From positions 310,001 through 374,000 of the forward strand of contig JABTTZ010000003.1 in the NCBI GenBank assembly GCA_015075625.1: a DNA stretch of 64,000 nucleotides, written 5' to 3'. This document shows, in pieces, positions 1 through 61,438 of this stretch. How positions within the stretch are numbered: position 1 is the first letter of the stretch; each line of letters opens with the position of its first letter. Below the pieces are notes generated by a model. That model searched no databases. It was given only the letters and a program-made list of their open reading frames with translations, and was not told where the DNA came from. The translations under genes and the position numbers were made by a program. The stretch comes from Anaerolineales bacterium (lineage in GTDB: Bacteria; Chloroflexota; Anaerolineae; Aggregatilineales; UBA2796).

Positions 1-816
1 GGTGAAGGCGCGTGGCGAACCGCTGAGCGCGATTCGCTCTGCCACCACCCCTTGCCCCTTATACCATACCTGATCCACCTCTCCCCACACACAGATCGTT
101 TTCGCCATAAGCGGATGGTGCAGCCACCCCTGCCCCAAAAAGCCGTGCTGGACAACAATGACGGGAATCTTTAGCCGTTGGGCAGCCGCCGCGAACGCCC
201 GACTGCGCGGGTGATATTCGCTGTCCATGACGATAGCACGGGGGCGGGTCTGCATTGCCCGAAGCGCATTCTCGGCGGTGCGGAACATCCCCCACGCAAT
301 GGCGGCTTGGCTCCACAACCAACGCTGGAAGGGGCGCTGCTCCAAGCCGAAGGCGGTGGCGATGCGATCCGCACTAGGGCGTAGGTTTGTTCGCAGCAGG
401 GCAGCGCCGTTTCGTGGGGTCAAGGCACGCAGAATGTCACGTTTTTGTGGAGGACGAAGCGTGGCTTTCTCAGTGGCGATTCCCCTTTGGCGAATCGTGT
501 CCAGAAGGGGCGCATGTTGGGCGACGATCCGCGCATGATCCCATTCCACAATGAGCAGCGCCTCGGCGGGGGGCATCTGCGCCTGATAGGACATGCCAAT
601 GAGCGCCGTTCGGAACGCCGCCCATCGAGAAGCATGCCGATAATTGTGCGTATTTAGGCACTCTGAGAAAAACGGAAGGCGCAACGCCCCGGAAACATCA
701 TAGCCATCATACCTCCCTAGCACAATGCTCCCCGCCGCAGCGATAAACCGCGCCATGAGGTCATCCGCTTGGCGGTCATTGGGAAATTGAGGGGGTGTTG
801 GTAAGGGTGTGGTCAT
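1..816 (-). CDS. GT-B-like surface polysaccharide protein (partial, 3' end outside window)
   Basis: The frame is open from an ATG at 816 to the window edge, giving 272 residues without a stop. The ATG overlaps the TGA of the upstream gene (ATGA, 813-816), so the two are probably translationally coupled. Near the visible C-terminal part there is an HGFLGQGW segment, then a VWGE motif and an SGSPRAF motif. The same arrangement (VWAE then TGSPQFD) occurs in the preceding gene and is typical of GT-B-fold capsule/CDP-glycerol transferase or UDP-GlcNAc 2-epimerase-like proteins. I infer a role in surface carbohydrate assembly from this and from the operon. The exact donor and acceptor cannot be read from the sequence. 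Confidence 0.75.
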   Translation of the reverse strand, partial: MTTPLPTPPQFPNDRQADDLMARFIAAAGSIVLGRYDGYDVSGALRLPFFSECLNTHNYRHASRWAAFRTALIGMSYQAQMPPAEALLIVEWDHARIVAQHAPLLDTIRQRGIATEKATLRPPQKRDILRALTPRNGAALLRTNLRPSADRIATAFGLEQRPFQRWLWSQAAIAWGMFRTAENALRAMQTRPRAIVMDSEYHPRSRAFAAAAQRLKIPVIVVQHGFLGQGWLHHPLMAKTICVWGEVDQVWYKGQGVVAERIALSGSPRAFT

Positions 817-2231
817 AGGTAGCTGCCGATGATCCTTGCGATGCGCTCTCCGGCGCTGCCATCCAGCCTCCCCGCTTCGCGCTCGCGAATGGTGCGGCGT
901 CCGGCGGCATCCAGCGAGGGGTTTTCCAAATAGGCGTTGATCTGGGCAATTGCCTGATCGGGCGTGTGTGCCAATCGGACGCCCCCACTGGCAACAATCG
1001 GGCGCATGTCGGAGCGATCATAGTAACGGCGGGCGGATAACCCCGCTGGCGTCTCGGCGGGCAGATCGTAATAAATCCCGACAGAGGGTTTATCGAGGAT
1101 CGCTGAATCAACGAACATGGTTCCCGAAATGTTCACTTGCACATCTTGATAGGCAAGCGTTGCCAAGTGAAGGGGTTCATCCTCAAGGATCAAGCGGATC
1201 ACATTTGCCTCGTGTTCGGGGCTGTTCACTGGATAGCTTGTTGGCGGCGGGTAAATGGCTACGCCCGGGTAGGTATGATGGAGCAGGGGGACATTTGCCC
1301 CAAAGCCACGCGGATGCCCCCGTACAAGCATCTGCGCTCCGCGCACGAACGTACCATCGCGCAGCGCATCGGCAAGATGCTGGACGATATGAATTTCATG
1401 GCGAATCAAGCCCGGCGTTGCCGTCGTATAGACGATCAAGGGGCGGGCGGGATCAAGCCCCACGTGCTGAAAAAACGCATCGCGGCTCAGACGGTAGGCA
1501 GGGTTCAGGTGGCGATCAAACTGCGGCGATCCGGTCACATGAATCGGCTTCCCGCGTAGTTCGGGGTACATATGGCAGAGGAACTCTCGCGTTGTCTCCG
1601 CCCAAACAAGGTAGGCGTCGGCATCGGGGAGGTGCATGATCTTTGCCGCAAGGTTATCGCGGCTGCGAATCATGAGGATCGTTGGGATAGACAGCCGCCG
1701 CGCCGCTGCCATGAGCGCCATTTCCCGCCACCCGTCCTGAGAAAACGAGACAACCACCCGCGCATCGAGGTCACGCAGAAGGCGCTCGTAATCCGCCATG
1801 ATCGGGTGCGCAGAGAGCGCCGCCATAAGCGCCCGCCGCCCCGCTTGTGCCTGCCCCAAACGTCCGGCTGCCCAATAGCCCGCCATCCGCATGGCGGCGC
1901 GGGCAAGGCTGGCACGGCGGCGGAGGGGGTTCGTCAGGTTGGCGGTGGTGCTGCTTTTGCGAAAGTCTTGCCACTGAGTCGCCGGATCGTAGTAGCATTT
2001 GCGGGCGTAGTAAGTACGCTCCATAAGGCGGTAGAGCGGCGGATCGCGGCGGGGGTCAAACTCCAACAAACAGCCGATCTCCACGCCGCTTGGCGCGGTC
2101 TGCACCGCCCCGGCATATTGATGCGGATCGACCAACGCCACGACGCGACTCCCCGCAAGGCGCTCCCCAAGATTGCCATTGCGGACGTTGCGCAAGGCAA
2201 GAAAACTATCACAGCCAATCACAACAGCCAT
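813..2231 (-). CDS. GT-B-fold glycosyl/glycerophosphotransferase-like protein
   Basis: A 472-residue cytoplasmic protein with no signal peptide or clear membrane segment. The C-terminal half has the features of the CDP-glycerol glycerophosphotransferase/2-epimerase-like GT-B fold: a VWAETTREF segment, VTGSPQFDRHL, LIVYTTATPG, an RGHPRG motif and a late NISGTMFVDSAILDKPSV stretch resembling the donor-binding region of these families. It lies 8 bp downstream of the HAD-SIS fusion gene and overlaps the next gene by 4 bp, so all three form one operon. I infer transfer or modification of a sugar-phosphate unit in surface polysaccharide synthesis. The substrate is unknown, and a non-catalytic epimerase-like role is possible. 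Confidence 0.75.
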   Translation of the reverse strand: MAVVIGCDSFLALRNVRNGNLGERLAGSRVVALVDPHQYAGAVQTAPSGVEIGCLLEFDPRRDPPLYRLMERTYYARKCYYDPATQWQDFRKSSTTANLTNPLRRRASLARAAMRMAGYWAAGRLGQAQAGRRALMAALSAHPIMADYERLLRDLDARVVVSFSQDGWREMALMAAARRLSIPTILMIRSRDNLAAKIMHLPDADAYLVWAETTREFLCHMYPELRGKPIHVTGSPQFDRHLNPAYRLSRDAFFQHVGLDPARPLIVYTTATPGLIRHEIHIVQHLADALRDGTFVRGAQMLVRGHPRGFGANVPLLHHTYPGVAIYPPPTSYPVNSPEHEANVIRLILEDEPLHLATLAYQDVQVNISGTMFVDSAILDKPSVGIYYDLPAETPAGLSARRYYDRSDMRPIVASGGVRLAHTPDQAIAQINAYLENPSLDAAGRRTIREREAGRLDGSAGERIARIIGSYL

Positions 2232-2239
2232 CGAAGGGC

Positions 2240-3292
2240 TTATCCCTTCATCAATTCGACTTCAACAAGTTCGCAGACGGCGTGCCACGCCACAAGGTGC
2301 AGTTCCTGGATGCGCGGGGTAAGCGCGGCGGGGGCGATGAAACACACCTCGCAGAGCGCCGCCATCGTTCCGCCTGCGCCTCCGGTGAAGCCAATGGTGT
2401 GCGCTCCCTTTGCCTGTGCTGCCTCCAAGCCGCGAATCACGTTTGGCGATTTGCCGCTAGTGCTGATCCCCACGACGACATCCCCCGCTTTGGCAAGGGC
2501 GCGAACTTGCCGCGAAAATACCTCCTCAAATGCCCAGTCGTTCCCGACGGCGGTGAGGATCGAGGTGTCTGTGGTCAGAGCGATTGCCGCAAAGGGCTGT
2601 GATTCCTTCAAAAAGCGCCCGACCAACTCGCCTGCAACGTGCTGCGCATCGGCGGCGCTGCCGCCATTCCCAAAGAGGAAAATCGTGTTTCCGCCGCGAA
2701 TGGCGCGAATCATCATCACGGCTACGGCGGAAAGGGTGGGGATCGATTCGCTCACCAGCCGTTCGTGGGCGGCAATGCTCTCGCTAATGATCCGGCGGAA
2801 TTCGCCCCTCAGGTCAAGGGCGGCGTCCTCACGAAGGCGCAGGACGAGTCGCGCCGCTTCTGCCGCTGCCCCCTCACCACCCCGCGCCTTAAGGATGCGT
2901 TTTGCCGCCGCCTGAGCCGCAGGGGTGGCGTTCGTCGGGGCAAGTCCGAGTCCGGCGGCACGGAGCGCGGGGGCGTCCCGATCTGAATCGCCCACATAAC
3001 AGACAGCGCTCAGAGGGACGTTGTGTGCCGCCGCCAGTTCGGTCAGGGCGGGGAGTTTGTCCTTTGCCCCGCTGATCACGCTCTCTACACCGAAACGGGC
3101 GGCAAAGGCTGCCACCATCTCGCCCGACTCTCCGGTGAGGAAGGCAAGCGGAATTCCGGCGCGTTTCAGGGCGTGAAGGGCGTCCAAATCATGAAAGTGA
3201 ATGTGTTTTGTTTCCGCTGTCTCCTGCGCGGTGAGCGCAGCGCGTCCGTCGGTGAGAACACCGTCAATGTCAAAGACGATTAGAGCGATCAC
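2240..3292 (-). CDS. KdsC-like HAD phosphatase fused to GmhA-like phosphoheptose isomerase (SIS)
   Basis: One 350-residue protein with two enzyme domains. Residues 1 to about 160 are a cap-less HAD phosphatase of the KdsC/NeuA C-terminal type: FDIDGVLTDG supplies the two catalytic Asp, LTGES the Ser/Thr motif, GAKDKL the Lys and YVGDSDRD the acidic pair. Residues from about 165 to the end are a SIS domain close to GmhA: FGNGGSAADAQH, AGELVGRF with the catalytic Glu, STSGKSPN, and HLVAWHAVCELVE with the catalytic His region. GmhA converts sedoheptulose 7-phosphate to D-glycero-D-manno-heptose 7-phosphate. The pairing suggests a nucleotide-heptose or acidic-sugar precursor step. It is first in an operon with two GT-B-like genes. 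Confidence 0.88.
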   Translation of the reverse strand: MIALIVFDIDGVLTDGRAALTAQETAETKHIHFHDLDALHALKRAGIPLAFLTGESGEMVAAFAARFGVESVISGAKDKLPALTELAAAHNVPLSAVCYVGDSDRDAPALRAAGLGLAPTNATPAAQAAAKRILKARGGEGAAAEAARLVLRLREDAALDLRGEFRRIISESIAAHERLVSESIPTLSAVAVMMIRAIRGGNTIFLFGNGGSAADAQHVAGELVGRFLKESQPFAAIALTTDTSILTAVGNDWAFEEVFSRQVRALAKAGDVVVGISTSGKSPNVIRGLEAAQAKGAHTIGFTGGAGGTMAALCEVCFIAPAALTPRIQELHLVAWHAVCELVEVELMKG

Positions 3293-3448
3293 AGGGTATG
3301 GGACTCTCCACCAATGGGGTTAAACCGTTGTCCACACCGTCGATAAATTCTAAGTGGACTGGTTGAAGTACCCACCTATCTTAACGCACGCTGACAAGGG
3401 GCGCATCCCTGAGGCATATTCCTCCCGCCTCATGCCCTCAAACAAAGG
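3293..3448. other. intergenic gap with a short hairpin
   Basis: This gap separates the end of namZ from the start of the HAD-SIS operon, both on the minus strand. It contains a GAGGC/GCCTC inverted repeat near 3411-3430, just past the namZ stop in the sense direction of transcription from the opp operon side it follows. No strong promoter or T-rich terminator tract is obvious. The promoter of the HAD-SIS operon is expected here but I cannot place it. Confidence 0.3.
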
Positions 3449-8468: not shown

Positions 8469-10343
8469 ATGCGTGTCTATCGTCGCTATCGCCAGATTGT
8501 GGGGGCTGCCCTTGTGGTGTGGCTTGCCGCTGCCGCCCTTTCGCCCTTTCCTAGCCGCGCCCAAGATAGCGCGGCGCAGCGCACCTATGCAATTTTGGAA
8601 GGGACGGACATTCCGGCGCGGGATCGCCTCTCTCTGGCGGTGCGCTTGTTGGGCATCCCGCCGGAGGCGCTTAGCCGCGTCTTGCCCCCCGAACCCCGCT
8701 ACACGATTGGCGAGCGCACCGAATTCACCGCCGTTAACCTTGACACGGCGCGGCGCTTTACGGTAAAGGCGGAACTGATTTACCTAACGCCCCACACGGC
8801 AATTTGGCTTGAAGATGGTGTGAGCGTGGATCGGAAAAAATTCAAAGCGAGCGCCGATCACTTTGAGACAACCATTTACCCGCGCCTCCATGCCTTGTTT
8901 GGGACAGAGGATATACCCGGAATAGACAATGATCCCCGTCTGCACATCCTTCATGCCCATCATTTGGGGAGCGGGGTAGGGGCATATTACGACCCCGACA
9001 GCGAATTTCCCCGCCTTGTTCAGCCGGGCAGCAACGAACGGCAGATGTTCTTCGTCAACCTTGACACAATGGGTGAATTCCTCGGCGGGGAGATTTACGA
9101 GGGAGTCTTGGCGCACGAATTTCAGCACATGATCCACCACCACGCCGACCTAAACGAGAGCAGTTGGCTGGACGAAGGGTTGGCAGAGCTTGCCTCGGCG
9201 TTGGCGGGCTACGATCAGGCAAGCTACAGCGCGGCAGCCTTTCTCAGCGCCCCCAACGATTCGCTGAATGATTGGCAAGGGAGCAATATTGATTATGGGG
9301 CGGGGTTTCTGTTCACCGCCTATTTTCACAGCCGTTTTGGGGATACCCCCTTGCGGCACTTGGTGGAAAACCCGCTGAATGGGCTGGCGGGCGTGCGCGA
9401 TGTGCTGAGCCTTCAACGGGGCGGCGAACTGCTGACTCTAGAAGAATTTTTTGGCGATTGGGCGGCGTCGCTCATCGTAAAGGATTACGCCCCGATCTAT
9501 ACGAATTTGCCCTTCAAACTCCCTCCCACAAATGCCCCACGCCTTGCCGTTGGGGTGGATCAGCCCCTCCCCATTTTGCCCTTTGCGCCCTTGCTACAGC
9601 GTGTTGATGTCCCCGCACGCTATGAATTCACGTTCAGCGGCTCGGCTACGCTCCCCTTACTGCCCATCACCATACCAGCGGGGAGAACGTTTTGGTGGAG
9701 CAACCGCGCTGATGAAAGCGAAGCGACCCTGACGCGCCGCTTTGATTTGCGTGGGGTAACCTCTGCCACACTCGTCTTTGGTCAAGGGTACATGATTGAG
9801 CAAGGATGGGATTACGCCTATGTGCAAGCCTCTACCGATGGGGGCGTGACCTGGAAAGCGCTGCCTGGAACGCGCACCGAACCGCGCAGCGATAACAACC
9901 CTTACGGAGATGCCTATAACGGCGAGGGGGTGTGGGCGACAGAGCGCGTTGATCTGAGCGCCTATGCCGGTGGAGAGGTGCTGATTCGCTTTGTTTACCT
10001 GACCGATGCGGGGACGCTCTGGGAGGGGATGGTTATTGATAACATCGCCGTGCCGGAGATTGGCTATTTTACCGATGCCGAGACGGATGATGGCGGGTGG
10101 TTAGCAGAGGGGTGGGTGCGCGTAGAAAATGTTCTCCCCACCAACTACCTGATTCAGGCAATTACCATTCGGCGCGATGGCACAACACAGGTTGACAAGG
10201 TGGTCAATGGGGGCGTGGAGGGACGCTATACGTTTACCGTTGGTGATGCGGTGGAGAAGGTTGTTTTTGTCTTCTCAAATGTGACGGAATATACAACCTT
10301 GCCTGCTGAGGGGCGTTATACGCTGCGACGGGTAGTGGACTGA
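8469..10343 (+). CDS. secreted gluzincin zinc metalloprotease
   Basis: Start is the ATG at 8469, eight bases after AGGAG, which opens a clean signal peptide (basic MRVYRRYRQ, then a hydrophobic core ending near SRAQ). The 624-residue product carries HEFQHMIHH at about residue 216 (HExxH zinc motif) followed by NESSWLDEGLAE, where the Glu is the likely third ligand of a gluzincin. The region after the catalytic domain has a jelly-roll-like segment with WEGMVIDNIAVPE, like the immune inhibitor A/MAM-type C-terminal domains. It is therefore an exported endopeptidase. The specific MEROPS family and target are not clear. The neighbour downstream is convergent. Confidence 0.82.
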   Translation: MRVYRRYRQIVGAALVVWLAAAALSPFPSRAQDSAAQRTYAILEGTDIPARDRLSLAVRLLGIPPEALSRVLPPEPRYTIGERTEFTAVNLDTARRFTVKAELIYLTPHTAIWLEDGVSVDRKKFKASADHFETTIYPRLHALFGTEDIPGIDNDPRLHILHAHHLGSGVGAYYDPDSEFPRLVQPGSNERQMFFVNLDTMGEFLGGEIYEGVLAHEFQHMIHHHADLNESSWLDEGLAELASALAGYDQASYSAAAFLSAPNDSLNDWQGSNIDYGAGFLFTAYFHSRFGDTPLRHLVENPLNGLAGVRDVLSLQRGGELLTLEEFFGDWAASLIVKDYAPIYTNLPFKLPPTNAPRLAVGVDQPLPILPFAPLLQRVDVPARYEFTFSGSATLPLLPITIPAGRTFWWSNRADESEATLTRRFDLRGVTSATLVFGQGYMIEQGWDYAYVQASTDGGVTWKALPGTRTEPRSDNNPYGDAYNGEGVWATERVDLSAYAGGEVLIRFVYLTDAGTLWEGMVIDNIAVPEIGYFTDAETDDGGWLAEGWVRVENVLPTNYLIQAITIRRDGTTQVDKVVNGGVEGRYTFTVGDAVEKVVFVFSNVTEYTTLPAEGRYTLRRVVD

Positions 10344-10358
10344 CCCTGTTCGGATAGG

Positions 10359-12122
10359 CTAGGGTTGAAGGGGGACGGCGCTAAAGACAGCGCTGAGGAA
10401 ACCTGCCCGTTCTTTTTCCGTCATGGGGCGGGGACGGGCATAATCTTCGATCAAGCCGGTGAATAGCTCGGTGCTGATATGCCGCCCATTATAGATGATC
10501 AATTTATCGGCAAACATCTGCCGTGTGCCGAGGGAAAACATCTGATCAAAAAAGAGATTCCCGATCCCGTAATGAATGAATGCACCGTAAGCAAAGCCGA
10601 AGCCTTGCGGGTGGTGCGCCTGACTGCCGAGGATGACAGACGCGCCCATTTGGGCATATTTTTGGAAAAATGCCTTCTGTACGGCGGGGACGCTGTATTC
10701 ATAGAGTTCTTGGTATTGGATAGTCATTACGACGAGGTAGCCAGAATCGCGCAGGCGGGGGATTTCCACCGCCAAAAACGCATCGTCACAGACGGCTGCG
10801 CCGGGGCGTTTCTCCGCTGCCCACGCGCCGGGCGGACCCACCGGATTACAGCCGAGGAAGGCGAGGTTGTTCCCGTTGTGGGTGATCAGCAGAGCTTTGC
10901 GGGCGTCGTCTGTGTTGCGTCCCCCGCCAAAATAGGGCATGTTGTTGGCGTCGTAGAGATCAAGCGAGTGGCTGAGGGCGGCTGTCCCCCAATCGTTGAC
11001 GTGATTCCCCGTCAGTTCAACAACGCCAAGGCGAATCCCTTTCAGCAAATCGAAGTATTTATCCCGCGAGCAGAAAGTGAGCGAGGCAGAATTGGGGTCG
11101 GGATAGGGGCAATCGGTGGCAAAAGCAACCTCGTTGCTGGTGTGGAGGATGTCCGCACCGGCTAAAAAAGGGGCAATATCGCGGGCGGGGTAGGCGACGC
11201 CGTTGATCTCCATTTGGTAGGCGGTTGCCCGCGTCAGCGCTGTGACGCCCGTCACAATGAGGGTGGTCAGACGGCTGAGATCGCGGTTTGTGGGCAGCCA
11301 GCGTCCCGTGCTGTTGATCAATGCGGCGGCTTCGTTCACCAATGCCGCATCACCAAGCAGTCCGAAGGTTTCCTTAAGCTGCCATTGGTTCATATCAAGC
11401 GTGCTGTCAAGGATGTTCAGCCCGTCTACAGTGAGCGCCTTCAGCGTCTTGTCCAGCTTGTCATAGGGAATCATCCCCCAAGCGTTAGGCGTTCCCCAGA
11501 TCGTCGTTGCCAGTTGATCAGGGGCGACAACGCGCACGGGGAAGTTTTGCGGCGGCGCCCCGTAGGTGATTGTCAGCCAATAGTAGATTGTCGCCGTCGT
11601 GACGAAAACGGGGGTTTGCCCGTTCGTTAGGTAAGAAACAGCGCTGAGATCGCCGCGCCAATAGCGCAGAATATCATTAAAACCGATATTGCCCGCCACT
11701 GTGTCAAAGCGGACGACGGGAACGTAAACCCACAGCGCCATCAGCGGGGAGGACTGCCCACCACGCAAGCTCGTAAGCTGAACTTGCACCTCGGCGCCCG
11801 TCGCGCTGCTCAGCCGCCCTTGCTGAAGGAGCATCGTCAGCGGGGTTTGCAATTCTGCCGGCACGTTGAGCGCAATGTAGGTGCGGATTGTTCCTGTGAA
11901 GGCGATGGCGGTAGGAACATCCGTCGGGGGGATGATGGCGGTGGGGACAAGCTCAGAGAGGGGGGTAGGCGGAAACGCTGGAATCGGTGTGGCAAAGGGC
12001 GCGATACCCTCTGTGGTGGGCGGGGCAAGGGTGGGCGTGGCGACCCGCGCCCCGGCACGGGCAAAGCACCCCGTCAGGCTGAGCAGCGCGACGATTAGAC
12101 CTATCATGCGAAGCACCCGCAT
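10359..12122 (-). CDS. CapA-family lipoprotein (poly-gamma-glutamate capsule synthesis-like)
   Basis: A 587-residue protein starting with a lipoprotein signal: hydrophobic core and LTGC lipobox with Cys19, then a Thr/Pro-rich linker to about residue 75. Residues from about 290 contain a CapA metallophosphatase-like core: DILHTSNEVAFA, VVELTGNHVNDWG, LGCNPVG, VMTIQYQE and SQAHHPQGF with IHYGIGNLFFDQM near the C-terminus. CapA proteins take part in poly-gamma-glutamate capsule formation or related export. The middle region (about 75-280) is extra relative to a minimal CapA and unrecognised. AAAGGGGGG precedes the ATG. No capBC-like neighbours are present, so a capsule role is inference only. 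Confidence 0.85.
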   Translation of the reverse strand: MRVLRMIGLIVALLSLTGCFARAGARVATPTLAPPTTEGIAPFATPIPAFPPTPLSELVPTAIIPPTDVPTAIAFTGTIRTYIALNVPAELQTPLTMLLQQGRLSSATGAEVQVQLTSLRGGQSSPLMALWVYVPVVRFDTVAGNIGFNDILRYWRGDLSAVSYLTNGQTPVFVTTATIYYWLTITYGAPPQNFPVRVVAPDQLATTIWGTPNAWGMIPYDKLDKTLKALTVDGLNILDSTLDMNQWQLKETFGLLGDAALVNEAAALINSTGRWLPTNRDLSRLTTLIVTGVTALTRATAYQMEINGVAYPARDIAPFLAGADILHTSNEVAFATDCPYPDPNSASLTFCSRDKYFDLLKGIRLGVVELTGNHVNDWGTAALSHSLDLYDANNMPYFGGGRNTDDARKALLITHNGNNLAFLGCNPVGPPGAWAAEKRPGAAVCDDAFLAVEIPRLRDSGYLVVMTIQYQELYEYSVPAVQKAFFQKYAQMGASVILGSQAHHPQGFGFAYGAFIHYGIGNLFFDQMFSLGTRQMFADKLIIYNGRHISTELFTGLIEDYARPRPMTEKERAGFLSAVFSAVPLQP

Positions 12123-60411: not shown

Positions 60412-61438
60412 TATCATACGTCTTATGTGAAATTAAAAAGCATGAACAGATGACCATTGAAAAGTCTGGACATGAATGCCATAGCGAAGGCGCAACAAGT
60501 ATTTGAGCAAGTGAGCAGTGACTTTGGCAATCAGGCGGGTGGTCAAGCCCAGCACCGTCTTCGCCAACAGACGCTCCAAGTTGCGTCCCGTATTCTGAAG
60601 TTCGTGAAATACCCCTTCAATCCGCTCACGCACACGGTTGAGCAACTGCTCAAAGCCGTCAGGATGTTGGATTTTCTGGTTCTTGCGCTTGGGGGTCAGC
60701 AAAGTGTTGCCCGTTCGCTGCTGAATTTGGGCTTGCCACTCGCCCCCGACAAACCCTTTATCGCCCAAGATTTCAGCGTTGGACACTTCATCAAGGATCG
60801 TTTCAGCCGCTTGTCTTTCCTCGGTGTTGGCGGACACCAGATCGTAGACGACAGGAATACCGTCCAGCGTCGCAATCAACACCAGTGTGTAGCCGAAATA
60901 GTGCAAGTTGCGACTGGCGCAATACCCGTAATCTGCACTGCCTCGAAAGTCGCTGCGGGCTTTGCTCCGTTTGTAAGCCAACACCGGCACGGGCTTGGTA
61001 TCAATCAAGTATTTGTCGGCTTGTCCCACGCCCAATTCCATCAACCACTCCCGACGCAACGCTTCCACCAAATGCCGCAGTCCCCGTGCCCGTCGATTAA
61101 ACTGACTTTGGTCAAGCAACTGCGGAAACAGGGGCAAGTAATTGGCACGGATGAACGCCAGATATTGCATCTCAGCAGGATAGGGGATGTAATCCTCTGC
61201 CACCATCAGCGTCATTCCCTCACTGTCACTGAAACTGGGCTTGCGTCCCACTTTCCCCTTCATCATCCTGCCTCCTCTCGCTTGATACCAATCATCAATC
61301 AGCACAAAGATGATGGTCAACAGCGTTTCAAGGTCTATACTGGTCATGGGTTGTTTTCCTTTGATGGTTTGTTTGGTAACTTCCCATCTTGGCAAACACC
61401 TCTTTTTGTCAACTACATTTCACATAGAGCGTATAATA
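60412..61438. mobile_element. IS982-type insertion sequence, complete
   Basis: About 1027 bp. Imperfect terminal inverted repeats of about 22 bp: left 60412-60433 (TATCATACG then TATGTGAAAT) and right 61417-61438, whose reverse complement is TATTATACG then TATGTGAAAT, with mismatches in the centre. It contains one transposase gene on the minus strand. The size fits the IS982 group (about 1 kb). I see no convincing target duplication. The left end abuts the methyltransferase stop codon. Confidence 0.75.
60433..61347 (-). CDS. IS982-family-like DDE transposase
   Basis: A 304-residue transposase. The ATG at 61347 (MTSIDLETLL) has AAAGGA nine bases upstream and is preferred over the ATG at 61395. 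Helical N-terminal domain with FSDSEGMTLMVAEDYI and QSQFNRRARGLRHLV, then a DDE core: YLIDTKPVPVLAYKR (first Asp), ILGDKGFVGG (second Asp) and a Glu in RVRERIEGVFHELQN. Length, layout and element size fit IS982, but related IS4/IS5-type groups cannot be excluded. The frame is intact, so the element may be active. Confidence 0.82.
   Translation of the reverse strand: MTSIDLETLLTIIFVLIDDWYQARGGRMMKGKVGRKPSFSDSEGMTLMVAEDYIPYPAEMQYLAFIRANYLPLFPQLLDQSQFNRRARGLRHLVEALRREWLMELGVGQADKYLIDTKPVPVLAYKRSKARSDFRGSADYGYCASRNLHYFGYTLVLIATLDGIPVVYDLVSANTEERQAAETILDEVSNAEILGDKGFVGGEWQAQIQQRTGNTLLTPKRKNQKIQHPDGFEQLLNRVRERIEGVFHELQNTGRNLERLLAKTVLGLTTRLIAKVTAHLLKYLLRLRYGIHVQTFQWSSVHAF

Follow-up and report, generated by a model that had tools for sequence, protein, structure and literature searches.

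A gene fusion of a KdsC-type phosphatase and a GmhA-type isomerase that probably helps to make an unusual acidic surface sugar

The presence of a KdsC-type phosphatase and a GmhA-type heptose isomerase in one protein chain raises the question of which sugar pathway such a protein could serve. The gene that prompted this question lies in a 64,000-nucleotide stretch of DNA from an Anaerolineales bacterium (contig JABTTZ010000003.1, positions 310,001 to 374,000), the whole of which is referred to below as the window. An initial annotation, made from the sequence alone, had noted the fusion ahead of glycosyltransferase-like genes, with both of its active sites apparently complete, and had suggested an unusual sugar precursor route for a surface polymer. 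The relevant features are as follows.

2240..3292, minus strand: KdsC-GmhA fusion gene, 350 aa, GTG start, no internal stops
2819..3292, minus strand: HAD (KdsC-type) phosphatase domain, residues 1-158, with D8, D10, T53, E55, F63, R66, K79, D102 and D106
2243..2797, minus strand: SIS (GmhA-type) isomerase domain, residues 166-350, with zinc ligands H218, E222, Q329 and H337
3304..3312, minus strand: ribosome-site-like GGTGGAGAG, 5' of the GTG of the fusion, read from the sequence
813..2231, minus strand: glycosyltransferase-like gene, 472 aa, following the fusion after 8 bases; NF046086 at 42 bits, below cut-off
1..816, minus strand: second glycosyltransferase-like gene, 454 aa, overlapping the first by 4 bases and continuing past the window start; the same as L006 9452-10816
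3449-4627, minus strand: gene for a NamZ exo-N-acetylmuramidase (245 and 168 bits), immediately upstream of the KdsC-GmhA gene

Homology to KdsC-type HAD phosphatases extends over residues 2-155 of the fusion and homology to GmhA over residues 166-349. The best PDB relatives were KdsC 4um5 for the HAD half (E 7.4e-24, residues 2-155) and GmhA 2xbl for the SIS half (E 3.6e-52, residues 166-346); in Pfam, HAD families matched residues 5-136 and SIS_2 matched residues 174-304 (87.4 bits, cut-off 27). With the curated NCBIfam models, the HAD half scored 83.0 bits for KdsC TIGR01670 (cut-off 106.95) and 80.3 bits for the KDN-9-P phosphatase NF058599 (cut-off 180), and the SIS half scored 177.6 bits for gmhA TIGR00441 (cut-off 209.45), so that both halves are to be viewed as divergent family members and not as clear equivalogs. 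By alignment, the catalytic residues of the four HAD motifs are all present (D8, D10, T53, K79, D102 and D106), and the SIS half has kept all of the GmhA zinc ligands, which in the N. gonorrhoeae enzyme are H61, E65, Q175 and H183 (partial text of PMC5387315). Both active sites thus look complete, as had been supposed, and we regard a genuine KdsC-GmhA fusion with two intact catalytic sets as confirmed. An assembly artefact or join was rejected, because the same domain order occurs at 62-64% identity in three other genomes (G439, G422 and G471). Also rejected was a relationship of the SIS half to MurQ or DiaA, since GmhA scores better and the zinc ligands are kept; a quick tree, with weak inner support, placed this half inside the GmhA radiation and not with other sugar isomerases, in keeping with its original assignment. 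An AlphaFold model of the fusion (3-row alignment) had pLDDT 65.9 and pTM 0.48; these values are too low to permit a fold search or an analysis of active-site geometry, and the model was excluded as evidence.

The fusion heads a tight run with the two glycosyltransferase-like genes (the 8-base gap, then the 4-base overlap), which bears out the arrangement first noted. Pfam gave no match in either of these genes; in NCBIfam a weak, sub-cut-off glycosyltransferase match was seen in the first alone, and the second had no informative family match. An orthologue of the first gene adjoins the fusion in G422 as well (55% over 162 aligned positions). The NamZ gene was considered as a functional partner and rejected, no NamZ-like gene having been noticed by eye in the gene lists of L051-L053. 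A transposase-like ORF was noted by eye near the window end (60433-61395, minus strand).

When the fusion was used as a query against 400 genomes of the phylum, 204 gave some match, and among the matches listed only that of the window genome itself covers both halves. Within a sample of 101 genomes from the order, both halves were found in four: the window genome (G000), G439, G422 and G471. The orthologues in the latter three are L036, L037 and L038, of which the G471 copy matches residues 2-247, whereupon its contig ends. A scan of a contig collection yielded a single relative, L050 (Peptococcaceae), which has KdsC and GmhA as separate genes. Other kinds of fusion were also observed. L026 (1360-3450) and L040 (1432-3309) have a glycosyltransferase-like N-terminal part (~450-500 aa, by eye) joined to GmhA and adjoin SDR-like and GmhB-like genes; in L048 (244-1908) and L049 (262-1914) a SIS domain follows an N-terminal domain of ~330 aa (deoxyhypusine synthase-like by eye), and a PfkB-like kinase comes next.

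The genes around the orthologues proved informative. In G439, G422 and G471 the genes ahead of the fusion, all on its strand, encode an SDR, a NeuB-family synthase (NeuB2, about 290 aa, without a SAF domain), the CMP-sugar synthetase NeuA1 and a Gfo/Idh oxidoreductase; the order is NeuA, NeuB2, SDR and fusion, with the SDR directly beside the fusion, and in G422 and G471 Gfo/Idh forms one protein with a second NeuA. Among solved structures, a relative of NeuB2 is 6ncs, a chain of 290 residues titled sialic acid synthetase and presumably from Leptospira. The run in L050 consists of separate genes for NeuB2, a TIM-barrel protein, Gfo/Idh, an SDR, KdsC, a ThDP enzyme and GmhA (the TIM-barrel and ThDP names were assigned by eye); its KdsC is 47% identical to the HAD half of the window protein, and its GmhA likewise shows 47%. 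The same set occurs in G384 (L123), with GmhA split over frames, and G367 has Gfo-SDR-GmhA at the end of a short contig. L050 and G367 were found through GmhA, and G384 and the three fusion genomes were recovered through NeuB2 also, so that the association holds in both directions. As a separate observation, the ThDP-dependent enzymes (by eye; L050 6149-7987 and L123 10225-12021) are 57% identical to each other, and the presence of this enzyme and the TIM-barrel protein inside a GmhA-type NeuB2 operon in two phyla makes a branched sugar step possible.

The window genome keeps NeuB2, the SDR and the CMP-sugar synthetases in a scattered state. It has three full NeuB-family matches and one weak match; NeuB2 and its SDR lie together on contig C1 (L070 9121-10832, of which NeuB2 occupies 9957-10832), away from the fusion, a NeuA1 relative (69% to that of G471) lies on C3, and a NeuA2 relative (63% to that of G471) lies on C5. 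Its four PF02348 matches are the NeuA1-like and NeuA2-like genes, one that is 29% identical to the KdsB of G445, and a GlmU-like gene of the window. Further nonulosonic acid genes are apparent in this genome, namely PseG/PseI-like, PseB/PseC-like and NeuC-NeuB1 genes (L071 7206-9817, L118 9011-15309 and L072 8448-10717), named by eye except for the NeuB family matches.

We surveyed 45 NeuB2 loci, from the window genome, L050, 36 other genomes of the phylum sample (at least 51% identity) and 7 more of the order sample (at least 59%), in stretches of about 7-20 kb, several of which stop at contig ends. GmhA was linked in five of them (L050-L053 and L123), and a fused NeuA-KdsC protein was present in 36. 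In a quick tree, the six NeuB2 sequences from genomes with the GmhA set, together with L160, split from the other 38 (SH-aLRT 93 and 85 at the forks); on that sister branch GmhA was linked in 0 of 38 loci and NeuA-KdsC was found in 36. L160 (from G121) sits by a long branch on the GmhA-type side with no GmhA in its stretch, a point against the pathway that we propose below. We use the tree itself here, as a label test of the NeuB2 groups compared them with NeuB1 rows only and says little. In the order sample, the four fusion genomes are exactly the four with a NeuB2 at least 74% identical to that of the window genome, itself included, the next identities being 59-61%.

The two NeuB2 groups also differ in sequence at particular places. 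At seventeen positions the 6 GmhA-type sequences have no residue in common with the 38 others (L160 being excluded from this comparison), and 14 of these positions are in residues 57-85, the rest being 201 and the gappy 290-291. Three of the changes in GmhA-type NeuB2 put a smaller side chain in the place of a larger aromatic one: F replaces W at 74, N replaces Y at 78 and L replaces Y at 81. With a threshold of 0.9, the GmhA split gives 4 positions, all in residues 69-81, and two control clades give 1 and 4 positions that are scattered along NeuB2; the span probability of the cluster, 0.0002, was computed after the sites had been seen and is illustrative only. In N. meningitidis NeuB, according to a partial text of PMC6795526, the corresponding stretch holds the active-site Asn74, and the AFPL (SAF) domain at the C-terminus contributes Arg314, the residue that positions the N-acetyl group. 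The SAF domain is present in NeuB1 and absent from NeuB2, so that use of ManNAc by NeuB2 in the manner of the N. meningitidis enzyme is unlikely. Judged from these residues, the acceptor segment of GmhA-type NeuB2 is altered and probably roomier.

A parallel difference was observed in the phosphatases. We take BT1713, a KDN-9-phosphate phosphatase (3e81), to bind its sugar through E56, R64 and K67, and the residues aligned to these are E, R and K in all 36 NeuA-KdsC proteins and in L152. One motif IV Asp is Asn in the NeuA-KdsC proteins, for which reason their phosphatase activity is putative. The GmhA-associated phosphatases (6 of 6) have E at position 56, a hydrophobic residue at 64, and R or K at 67: the hydrophobic residue is F, V, I, I and I in the four fusions and L050, each with R, and L123 has E, I and K. 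The window protein, with E, F and R, thus lacks the KDN triad. In Kdo-type KdsC, position 56 is R or A (3 of 3).

We consider it likely, from these partners and residues, that the fusion serves a NeuB-type, sialic-acid-like 2-ulosonic acid pathway. In such a pathway the KdsC half would act in the manner of its KdsC relatives, by taking the terminal phosphate off a 3-deoxy-2-ulosonate, and the odd part would be the GmhA half. The sequences themselves show that the two domains are fused and have their catalytic residues, that in relatives the gene is linked to NeuB2, SDR and NeuA, and that residues have changed in NeuB2 and the phosphatase; from these we infer every substrate and product named here. 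The GmhA half would convert sedoheptulose 7-phosphate to glycero-manno-heptose 7-phosphate, which the SAF-less NeuB2 would join with phosphoenolpyruvate to give a ten-carbon 3-deoxy-2-ulosonate 10-phosphate; the KdsC half would then remove the phosphate, and NeuA1, perhaps with SDR and Gfo/Idh steps, would produce a CMP-activated sugar for the adjoining glycosyltransferases. In the known route to KDN, mannose 6-phosphate is condensed with PEP and the 9-phosphate is then removed (PMC6200933, partial text). As the product of GmhA is mannose 6-phosphate plus one carbon, the proposed route would be the KDN pathway made one carbon longer, and the altered NeuB2 segment, the altered phosphatase sugar site and the presence of GmhA in the same operon would together be in accord with a ten-carbon homologue. 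We put forward a ten-carbon product tentatively, at a little under an even chance; the fuller proposal, a ten-carbon 3-deoxy-2-ulosonic acid that is a sialic-acid homologue, is made from sedoheptulose 7-phosphate by a GmhA/NeuB/KdsC set, and is common to the phylum of the window and a Bacillota genome, is to our minds almost evenly balanced, with doubt slightly the heavier. The best reading is still the one first suggested, of a surface polymer supplied by an unusual precursor route, and the fusion probably contributes to the synthesis of an acidic surface sugar of an unusual kind, perhaps with ten carbons.

Possibly, the GmhA half now acts on a different substrate and provides mannose 6-phosphate or some other aldose phosphate, in which case the product would be KDN or another C8/C9 acid. 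NeuB2 and KdsC without GmhA are the commoner arrangement, so that GmhA may be an add-on whose substrate could have changed, and KDN is the known product of a pathway with NeuB and a KdsC-type phosphatase (partial text of PMC6200933). At residue 231, where all 31 of the other GmhAs compared have Arg, the fusions carry Ser (3 of 3 aligned, and in the sequence of the fourth), which likewise speaks against a ten-carbon product; Ser was not seen at this position in L050, L009 or L123. A search of six genomes for the type I PMI C-terminal domain gave no match in any of them, a weak test in that only 2 of 14 control genomes match. Yet of the 29 positions that hardly vary among 31 other GmhAs, 26 are the same in all 5 NeuB2-context sequences compared, zinc ligands included (a count that omits the L123 fragment as well as nine divergent SIS rows, and for which the truncated G471 fusion was left out of the context group); the other near-invariant positions that changed are a Thr to Ala in L050 and an Asp to Glu in the window protein. 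Moreover, the phosphatase is without the KDN triad and the NeuB2 segment has lost aromatics, and we therefore hold a change of substrate to be unlikely. It should be noted that the grouping of the SIS half with the other NeuB2-context GmhAs is poorly supported (SH-aLRT 72, with 0 of 500 shuffles as low), which tells against the ten-carbon proposal.

The same ten-carbon product could be reached in another order, with the fusion carrying sedoheptulose 7-phosphate through heptose 7-phosphate to free heptose, which NeuB2 would then condense with PEP. Many bacterial NeuB enzymes condense free ManNAc, and fused domains often perform consecutive steps; in the order that we prefer, the fused domains would catalyse steps 1 and 3 and not neighbouring steps, which weighs against it. 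The changes at the R64 position in all six GmhA-associated phosphatases, and of K67 to Arg in five of six, are also as might be expected of a substrate that is not an acid. However, all 36 NeuA-KdsC proteins of the sister branch have retained the KDN-9-P triad, which makes late dephosphorylation likely to be ancestral, and KdsC relatives act on ulosonate phosphates. By these considerations, early dephosphorylation seems to us rather improbable.

The initial annotation had raised the prospect that the KdsC half replaces GmhB in a heptose route, and an NDP-heptose pathway of this kind would make use of the intact active site of the GmhA half. The window genome does have an HldA-like PfkB kinase (272 bits, cut-off 345), which could use heptose 7-phosphate and to that extent counts against an ulosonic acid product. 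But the same kinase is found in G424, where the fusion query had no SIS match, and none comparable was seen in the other three fusion genomes (77-93% complete). No GmhB was found in the window genome, where the best score was 29 bits as compared with 115 for the positive control, which lies beside the GmhA of G445, and none of its 4 GHMP kinases was recognised as HddA, inspection by eye pointing to a mevalonate kinase, a galactokinase, a homoserine kinase and a diphosphomevalonate decarboxylase. The linkage, moreover, is to NeuB2 and not to kinases. The conserved partners, a NeuB-family synthase, CMP-sugar synthetases, an SDR and Gfo/Idh, together with the lack of GmhB and HddA, argue for an ulosonic acid pathway rather than NDP-heptose, and the idea of a GmhB substitute is not supported and seems to us quite improbable. 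G445, which belongs to the same family, appears to have both a complete Kdo operon (KdsB-KdsD-KdsA-KdsC; L055 6931-10004) and a complete GDP-heptose operon (HddA-GmhA-GmhB-nucleotidyltransferase; L054 4080-7354), which is surprising if the group lacks classical LPS.

That the two halves belong to unrelated pathways and were fused by chance would accord with the lack of a NeuB gene beside the fusion at the window's own locus, which counts also against the pathway proposed, but separate KdsC and GmhA genes share one NeuB2 operon in L050, of another phylum, and in G384, so that the gene set is shared without fusion and mere chance is very improbable.

The proposed ulosonic acid pathway may be compared with several known systems. 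It has in common with the KDN-9-phosphate pathway (BT1714 synthase and BT1713 phosphatase; P. parvum Kdn-9-P synthetase) a NeuB-family synthase, a KdsC-type phosphatase that keeps E56, and a CMP-sugar synthetase; it differs in the added GmhA half, in the hydrophobic residue at the R64 position and Arg at the K67 position, and in a NeuB2 segment 57-85 unlike that of the NeuB2 proteins that accompany KDN-type phosphatases. KdsC (Kdo-8-phosphate phosphatase) and the KdsD-KdsC pair follow the same logic, an isomerase and a phosphatase around a PEP-condensing synthase, although here the isomerase is GmhA-like and not KdsD-like, position 56 is E and not R, and no clear KdsB is present among the CMP-sugar synthetases of the genome. 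With GmhA (sedoheptulose-7-phosphate isomerase) the SIS half shares the family, the zinc ligands and the 26 of 29 near-invariant positions, whereas it scores below the NCBI cut-off, is fused, and resides in a genome without HddA or GmhB. A precedent for a phosphatase fused into a sialic-acid-type pathway is offered by Leptospira NeuB, described in a partial text of PMC3438082 as having a phosphatase 'adapter' domain; in that case the fusion partner of the phosphatase is the synthase, and here it is the GmhA isomerase. In listings from the open-access literature, which leave subscription papers mostly outside their scope, we found no description of a KdsC-GmhA fusion or of a C10 ulosonic acid; the one paper listed for the fusion was, judging by its title, a description of a Kerstersia genome. 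Our literature search found nothing on BFO_1060, and none of the residue names sought in PMC5705639 was matched.

If the ten-carbon proposal is correct, natural 2-ulosonic acids of this type would extend from eight and nine carbons to ten, a heptose of the pentose phosphate pathway would be linked to sialic-acid-type chemistry, and the role of GmhA in a bacterium without GmhB and HddA would be explained. Position 64 of the phosphatase and segment 57-85 of NeuB are supplied here as sequence markers. Even if the product should prove to be an ordinary C9 acid, the fusion would move from heptose metabolism to ulosonic acid metabolism.
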